In this document: positions 4,840-6,373 of the stretch, in pieces
Layout of the letters: each line of letters begins with the position of its first letter
Numbering within the stretch: the first letter of the stretch is position 1
From: a bacterium
GTDB taxonomy: Bacteria > NPL-UPA2 > JAGMAN01
Length of the DNA: 6,373 bases
Assembly (NCBI GenBank): GCA_023130215.1
Contig: JAGMAN010000002.1
Location: 1 to 6,373 of the forward strand
Direction of reading: 5' to 3'
Translations under genes and position numbers: made by a program
Notes under the pieces: generated by a model
What the model was told of the DNA's origin: nothing
Database searches by the model: none
Seen by the model: only the letters and a program-made list of their open reading frames with translations

Positions 4840-4847
4840 AAGGACAA

Positions 4848-4922
4848 GGCACAAAGTAAATAAAGGCACAGAGGCACAAAGCGTGAAAAGAGATGAAAAG
4901 CAAATAAACTCTGTGCCTTTAT
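4848..4922. repeat. Intergenic repeat: GGCACARAG copies and a 14-bp inverted repeat
   Basis: Three copies of GGCACARAG start at 4848, 4865 and 4873. The sequence ATAAAGGCACAGAG (4860-4873) is perfectly inverted as CTCTGTGCCTTTAT (4909-4922), with a 35-base A-rich loop. The element begins eight bases after the LysM stop codon. No T-run follows the second arm, so a standard terminator is unlikely, although the stem could protect or process the 3' end of the LysM transcript. From memory, similar GGCACAGAG-type segments occur between genes in many genomes of uncultivated bacteria, which would make this a dispersed repeat. That cannot be shown from one copy. Confidence 0.6.
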
Positions 4923-4932
4923 GCCTATGTGG

Positions 4933-4996: not shown

Positions 4997-6373
4997 ATGA
5001 GAAAGATCCTTGTTGAGAAAAAATTTTTCGGAGAGATTATCCATAGGGTAAAGAGGAGGCTGGCGCCCAAGCTCGATCTTCTGAAGAAGGCTCAGGTTTT
5101 GAAATGGCCCCTAACTCTCTTCTTCTACTTCCTTTCCGTGTGGACAGTAATCCCGGAAGCTGTCTGGGTCTCTTCCGAAAAATTGATATCAGGTATAGGG
5201 GGAATCTCTATCCTGATTCTCATTCTCTTCTTTATCGTCGGTATTTATCTGCGCAACTACCACTCCCAGGTTTTGGCTCAAAGCCGTACCTTCTTCCTCC
5301 TGGGTCTGGTAGTTTTGGGAGTGTCTCTTCTGGCCAGGCTCATTATGCGCTACGGGCTGTCTGGTTACCTCATACCGGTAGCCGTCGCTCCCATGTTAGT
5401 GGCTATATTGGTGGAGGCCAGATTAGGAGTTGTGGTGGCTGTTATCTTAAGTATATTCGTTGGAGTCCTGACCGGATACAGGCTGGACTATATGGTGGTA
5501 TCCCTGGCGGGAGGGATGGTCGGGCTGTTCAGTGTGGCTCATGTGAGGAGGAGAGCAGATTTAATTAAGGCTGGACTTCTGGTCAGTCTTGCCAATCTGG
5601 TCACCATCCTTGGCTTTCGCCTTTTGGGATTTTCAGCCGAGGAACCGATTGCCGATGTCTGTCTGTGGGCGGTAGTGAATGGGGCAGTGTCGGGTGTAGC
5701 AGCCACTGTGGTGCTGCCAATCTTCGAACATCTTTTTAAAGTTACTACAGATATTAAGTTATTGGAGTTATTGGACCTTAATCAACCCATCTTAGAGAAG
5801 TTGAAGAGCCAGGCTCCTGGAAGCTATCAGTCGAGCCTGGCCGTGGCCAATTTAGCCGAATCGGCGGCCCAGGCCATTGGAGCCAATCCGCTCTTAGCAA
5901 AAGTAGGCTCCTATTACCACGATATTGGCAAGATAGAGAAAGCCTCCTACTTCACCGAAAACCGCATGCTAACTTCTGCTATGCAGAAGGATAAACACAA
6001 AAAATTAAATCCAAGCATGTCCAGCCTCATTCTCACTTCCCATGTCAAAGAGGGGGTAGATTTAGCGAACAAAAACAGCCTTCCCGAGGCGGTTGTAGAC
6101 ATCGTCCGCCAACATCATGGGACAAGCCTGACCTCTTTCTTCTATCAGCGGGCAGTAGAGGGAGATGAGCATAGGACCGTTAAGAAGGATGACTTTCGTT
6201 ACCCCGGCCCCAAACCCCAGACCAAAGAGGCAGCCATCGTCATGTTAGCGGATTCGGTGGAGGCGGCTTCCCGCAGCCTAACCCATCCCCCTCCCAGCCG
6301 CATTAAAAATTTGGTCAGCAAAGTCGTTAATGATAAGTTGACCGATTACCAGTTAGATGAGTCCGATCTGACC
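4997..6373 (+). CDS. Membrane HDIG (7TM-HD, PgpH/YqfF-related) protein, 3' end missing
   Basis: The frame is open from ATG 4997 (after an in-frame TAA at 4985-4987) to the window edge, giving 459 residues without the C-terminus. No strong ribosome binding site precedes it; GAGG at 4978-4981 is rather distant. A basic cytoplasmic segment (1-38) is followed by seven or eight hydrophobic helices between about 39 and 243, then a cytoplasmic HD domain (about 258 on). Family hallmarks are ANPLLAKVGSYYHDIGK (296-312), TSHVKEG (347-353), RQHHGTS (371-377), FRYPGPKPQTKEAAIVMLAD (400-419) and SVEAA (420-424). These match PgpH/YqfF, which hydrolyses the second messenger c-di-AMP. Two oddities stand out. 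Only about 12 residues join TM1 to TM2, so the usual large extracellular domain is missing. The first metal-ligand region reads Y-Q-S-S (277-280) where the family has Y-H-H-S. His308, Asp309, His349, His373, His374 and Asp419 are kept. Activity is therefore uncertain. Confidence 0.93.
   Translation, partial: MRKILVEKKFFGEIIHRVKRRLAPKLDLLKKAQVLKWPLTLFFYFLSVWTVIPEAVWVSSEKLISGIGGISILILILFFIVGIYLRNYHSQVLAQSRTFFLLGLVVLGVSLLARLIMRYGLSGYLIPVAVAPMLVAILVEARLGVVVAVILSIFVGVLTGYRLDYMVVSLAGGMVGLFSVAHVRRRADLIKAGLLVSLANLVTILGFRLLGFSAEEPIADVCLWAVVNGAVSGVAATVVLPIFEHLFKVTTDIKLLELLDLNQPILEKLKSQAPGSYQSSLAVANLAESAAQAIGANPLLAKVGSYYHDIGKIEKASYFTENRMLTSAMQKDKHKKLNPSMSSLILTSHVKEGVDLANKNSLPEAVVDIVRQHHGTSLTSFFYQRAVEGDEHRTVKKDDFRYPGPKPQTKEAAIVMLADSVEAASRSLTHPPPSRIKNLVSKVVNDKLTDYQLDESDLT

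Follow-up and report, generated by a model that had tools for sequence, protein, structure and literature searches.

The ligand set H...HD...H...HH...D is treated as a signature of HD phosphodiesterases. The locus described here raises the question of whether a PgpH-type protein in which the first histidine of that set is replaced by serine still functions, and if so, in what way.

A PgpH-type protein with serine at a metal-ligand position

The window, which is the whole stretch of DNA analysed, is an entire contig of 6373 bases from a draft genome of 1.01 Mb. The gene in question begins with an ATG and remains open to the contig end, where its 3' end is missing. Pfam PF07698 and PF01966 were both matched above cut-off, placing a 7TM-7TMR_HD membrane domain ahead of an HD domain, and the NCBIfam HDIG domain was matched as well. 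By homology, the protein is a member of the 7TM-7TMR_HD/HDIG family. The assignment to PgpH/YqfF in a first-pass annotation of this DNA was thereby confirmed, and the best structural match was also a PgpH, that of Listeria (4s1b). The residues that follow the HH ligands are HHGTSL, and GYP was found nowhere in the protein, which does not fit an HD-GYP protein. The features of the gene are listed in Table 1.

Table 1 Features of the pgpH-type gene in the window
Feature	Position	Strand	Basis or remark
PgpH-type ORF (7TM-7TMR_HD + HD)	4997..6373	+	459 residues, 3'-cut by contig end
7TM-7TMR_HD membrane domain, residues 67-251	5195..5749	+	Pfam PF07698, E 5.7e-37
HD domain, Pfam-matched residues 280-423	5834..6265	+	PF01966, E 4.9e-16; superposes on 4s1b
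S-Y-Q-S-S motif instead of T-Y-x-H-S	5822..5836	+	sequence; alignments
Ser279 (TCG), position of Listeria PgpH ligand H514	5831..5833	+	alignments, structure match; PMC8177086
His308-Asp309, HD dyad (H543-D544)	5918..5923	+	sequence, alignment
Lys312, equivalent of catalytic Lys547	5930..5932	+	invariant in alignment; role from PMC12072042
His349 (H580)	6041..6043	+	alignment
His373-His374 (H604-H605)	6113..6118	+	alignment
Asp419 (D648)	6251..6253	+	alignment

The codons AGC TAT CAG TCG AGC are read in the open frame as S276 Y277 Q278 S279 S280, as the first-pass annotation had reported, at the place where 4s1b reads T-Y-H-H-S. The structure alignment paired residue 260 with residue 495 of Listeria PgpH, an offset of 235, and no gaps fell between the S-Y-Q-S-S motif and the HD dyad. 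Ser279 therefore corresponds to H514, the first of the PgpH ligands given in a review (H514, H543, D544, H580, H604, H605 and D648; PMC8177086). Six of the seven ligands are present and the first is serine; His308, Asp309, His349, His373, His374 and Asp419, all described earlier as retained, align with the family, as does Lys312.

The motif had been compared with an HHS family pattern, with both of its histidines counted as lost. The H514-equivalent residue is histidine in 34/34 canonical relatives, which upholds the H-S part of the pattern; of the two histidines, only this one is a ligand. The residue ahead of it is not conserved (His in 15, Gln in 8, Asn in 7, Tyr in 2 and Ser in 2), and the real rule is [H/Q/N/...]-H-S. 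Because the first of the two histidines is variable and the second invariant, it is a single lost histidine that matters, and Gln278 is in itself ordinary. Elsewhere in the alignment, the HH ligand pair reads His-Gln in two canonical relatives (L015 and L029), a further natural ligand change in the family, at the position of His374.

The extracellular 7TMR-HDED domain was absent from the window's protein and from that of a congener (L002) by domain search, and it was present in a protein from the same order (L004) and in L061. Since it has an incomplete ligand set and lacks HDED, the window's protein should not be classified among the canonical PgpH phosphodiesterases.

The serine variant is shared by three candidate phyla

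Two other genomes of the window's genus (85-88% identity) and one genome of the same order (71%) read YQSS at this position. The wider distribution was assessed in 386 genomes across the domain with a DNA pattern that kept the flanks and required at position 279 a codon not beginning with C. This non-His pattern was matched in at least 10 of the 386 genomes and the His-codon version in at least 201; both counts are lower bounds, as non-His codons that begin with C, and GTG in HDVGK, are missed. Of the ten non-His matches, four were in the window's order, five in two further lineages (PGSYQSC and PGTYQSC) and one in G152 (PGTFSSV). The Ser variant was found in 5/5 genomes of one further phylum (that of G353), every PgpH found in another (that of G258) reads YQSC or FQSS, and three of the four genomes in the class of G152 carry a Ser variant. 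These results indicated that the Ser variant is not an oddity of one genome but is common to three candidate phyla. No description of a Ser-variant PgpH was found in the open-licence papers searched.

Origin of the histidine loss

A maximum-likelihood tree of 49 sequences was generated with the two motif columns left out. All 14 Gln-Ser sequences formed one clade (95/93, rough support values from a bootstrap that had not fully settled), and the TFSSV protein was placed outside it. A single origin of all His losses, TFSSV included, was rejected with a p-AU of 0.028 for a group that was chosen after the tree had been seen. Because the Gln-Ser clade is monophyletic, TFSSV lies elsewhere and the single-origin topology was rejected, the tree indicates one old loss that three GTDB phyla share, whether through descent or through transfer, and at least one further independent loss, again to Ser, in the TFSSV lineage. 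The latter, in which the same His was lost independently (PGTFSSV or similar in L063 of G152, L099 and L100), is kept in two genera of one family.

Both the window's genus and the G258 phylum lack the HDED domain, which is present in L004 and the G353 phylum; at the level of single proteins, L002, L059 and L073 are without it, versus L004 and L061 with it. This patchy distribution indicates more than one loss of HDED within the clade. Loss of HDED was considered as a cause or partner of the His loss and rejected: L004, L061 and L063 have HDED without the His, and L034 is short with the His intact.

Selection on Ser279

Whether Gln-Ser is fixed in the clade was a point that the first-pass annotation had marked for checking. 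Position 279 is Ser in 14/14 members over a clade branch length of 4.58 substitutions per site, Gln278 is clade-invariant, and the six other ligands and Lys312 are invariant in the same 14 members. Some members encode Ser279 by TCG, TCC or TCT, others by AGT or AGC. To pass between TCN and AGY serine codons, either two bases must change together or a residue other than Ser must occur on the way. Since both codon families are used, Ser itself appears to be under selection at position 279. Within the genus, omega of the HD region is 0.18-0.24, and the gene is not decaying. The swap is old and is kept by selection, so the protein is probably still functional, although its way of working may have changed.

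Besides 279, the only clade-specific alignment columns are 377, 380 and 381. The last two lie near the HH ligands and are Ser-Phe in the clade versus mostly Lys or another residue and Tyr in canonical relatives. No substitute His, Asp or Glu ligand was fixed clade-wide among the alignment columns.

Predicted structure

An AlphaFold2 model generated with 48 family members had a mean pLDDT of 92.8. Its HD part superposed on 4s1b and 4s1c with 1.3-1.4 A over 188-194 residues and a Z of about 28; the best match was 4s1b_D (Z 28.1, rmsd 1.4 A over 194 residues), which identifies an HD domain with the PgpH fold, and HD-GYP structures scored far lower (Z 11-12 versus Z 28). The close superposition of a high-confidence model indicates that the predicted HD fold is undisturbed. 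The predicted 7TM part (5276-5740, residues 94-248) resembles the S components of ECF vitamin transporters, with RibU 5kbw at Z 12.1 and 3.2 A over 152 residues and further matches to 4hzu, 4rfs and 4huq. This likeness could hint at a small-molecule pocket, although helical bundles at Z of about 12 may match by chance.

c-di-AMP metabolism in the carrier genomes

A diadenylate cyclase was found in 14/15 genomes with a Ser-type PgpH, the exception being a genome that is 64% complete (G391), and in 0/6 genomes of the same phyla without one (Fisher p 1.3e-4, with relatedness among the genomes ignored). The window's own genome (G000) encodes a cyclase of the CdaA type (G000:C114, E 1.0e-41). The CdaA-type cyclases of the clade (L040-L043) carry GTRHLAA where an RHR motif is usual, and their genes lie between folP-like and pdxJ-like genes, named by eye.

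DHH searches of the carriers recovered RecJ-sized proteins and, in many genomes, also one of about 330 aa, the size of DhhP/NrnA. None of GdpP size was recognised among the DHH proteins of these carriers, and the incompleteness of the MAGs makes absences soft. Only a RecJ-sized DHH protein was found in G121, which is 96% complete, and in the f259 genomes G385, G390 and G391, and G000 yielded only a RecJ-like fragment cut by a contig end. By these searches some carriers have no other recognised c-di-AMP phosphodiesterase, an absence that is likewise soft.

The order phoH-pgpH-ybeY was found in L004, L059 and L073 (neighbours identified by domain search in L004 and by eye in L059 and L073). In the window's genus, ybeY follows pgpH, phoH does not adjoin, and the gene of a LysM protein lies upstream (neighbours domain-checked in L032).

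Function of the Ser-type protein

In PgpH, a water that bridges two metals attacks the phosphorus, D648 assists and K547 stabilises the oxyanion (PMC12072042). Every one of these catalytic elements and every ligand but one is present in the window's protein. The first-pass annotation leaned towards an inactive or sensor-only protein. That lean is not supported by six ligands and an HDIGK lysine that are invariant over about 4.6 substitutions per site, by a Ser279 that is kept through the TCN/AGY switch, or by a presence that tracks diadenylate cyclase. The same three observations make a metal-bound and probably hydrolytic protein the more likely case, and the most likely reading, held with somewhat better than even confidence, is a metal-dependent c-di-AMP phosphodiesterase, putatively still working, in which the first metal site has been remodelled.

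The protein belongs to an old monophyletic PgpH-type subfamily in which Ser, with an invariant Gln ahead of it, has taken the place of the first metal-ligand His. According to this reading, its HD domain probably still holds two metals. One metal site would be complete (Asp309, His349, His373 and His374), and the other would keep His308, Asp309 and Asp419. The missing imidazole may be substituted by a water or by one of two side chains, that of Ser279 or that of Gln278; which group takes its place is speculation. c-di-AMP would still be hydrolysed to pApA, probably with an altered metal preference or at a slower, regulated rate, and the Ser-type PgpH would be the main c-di-AMP phosphodiesterase of the organisms that carry it.

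Precedents in the literature for loss of the first His point both ways. RpfG has Phe at the equivalent position (PMC4159591) and is described as an active purified HD-GYP phosphodiesterase (PMC3774798), and in OxsA the corresponding H66, which we read as the first His of the motif, is replaceable by water (PMC8177086). Both precedents argue for activity, as does the second independent loss, also to Ser and also kept across genera. Replacement of the equivalent residue in PmGH (His189Ala) essentially abolished activity (PMC4159591), which counts against it, together with the lack of a clade-fixed substitute ligand and the DhhP/NrnA-sized protein that could degrade c-di-AMP in its place.

The main rival, which we consider possible but clearly less likely, holds that hydrolysis has been lost and that the protein is a membrane receptor for c-di-AMP (or metal), which would bind the nucleotide in an HD pocket loaded with metal and would signal through the membrane domain. 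It would account for the PmGH result, the tracking of the cyclase fits a receptor equally well, and in several genomes the DhhP/NrnA-type protein could carry out the degradation. That the catalytic Lys and every other ligand are kept, and that there are genomes without another recognised c-di-AMP phosphodiesterase, argues against it. Conversion of an ancient three-phylum PgpH subfamily into a membrane c-di-AMP receptor, with its HD site metal-loaded and non-hydrolytic, is viewed as doubtful, at about the same level.

A changed hydrolytic specificity, with c-di-AMP giving way to another dinucleotide, to pApA or to a phosphomonoester, is ranked third and judged unlikely. Nuclearity and ligands of HD proteins have been linked to the type of reaction (PMC8177086), and the clade is also distinct at positions 380 and 381, beside the HH ligands. 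Against this, the remaining strongly conserved positions of the domain are common to canonical PgpH, and the presence of the protein tracks diadenylate cyclase.

An error in sequencing or assembly, or a pseudogene in decay, might be suspected in a gene cut by the end of a short contig of a fragmented draft, but has almost no chance of being correct and is refuted for the clade, as separate assemblies and whole phyla agree on the Ser variant, two or three bases must change to turn a His codon into TCG, relatives use the different codons TCC and AGT, and the frame is intact with an omega of about 0.2.

Comparison with known HD proteins

The window's protein resembles Listeria PgpH (Lmo1466, 4s1b/4s1c) in its 7TM-7TMR_HD and HD domains, the latter with 45% identity and a superposition at 1.4 A, and in six of the seven ligands and the HDIGK lysine. 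Its setting is also that of a PgpH, with ybeY downstream in the window's genus, the phoH-pgpH-ybeY order in L004 and a cyclase in the genome. It differs in having Ser for H514 and Ser-Phe at 380-381 and, in the window's genus, in lacking the extracellular 7TMR-HDED domain. RpfG is likewise a natural HD phosphodiesterase reported to be without the first ligand His, with Phe in that place (PMC4159591), and to be active (PMC3774798), but it is a soluble c-di-GMP enzyme with a GYP motif and a REC domain, and it differs in other ligands too. A further natural HD protein with one altered ligand is Bd1817, an HD-GYP protein that is inactive and still binds metals (PMC8177086). Unlike the window's protein, it belongs to a different family, the ligand it has lost is the terminal Asp and not the first His, and its site is capped by a lid (PMC4159591).

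In the PgpH sample, the first His is invariant outside the two variant lineages. A conserved natural subfamily that lacks it, and whose carriers produce c-di-AMP, can be used to test directly whether cyclic dinucleotide hydrolysis depends on this ligand; alternatively, the Ser-type subfamily may mark a transition from catalyst to receptor. For annotation pipelines, neither PgpH activity nor its loss is assignable from the first His alone.

Other features of the window

No Rfam family was matched in the window. An ORF of 199 residues at 161-760, beside a HU/IHF-type gene, had no Pfam match. Between the LysM gene and pgpH, positions 4846-4926 contain AAGGCACARAG repeats and a perfect 14-base inverted repeat (4860-4873 / 4909-4922), and these repeats are possibly a small mobile or repeat element.
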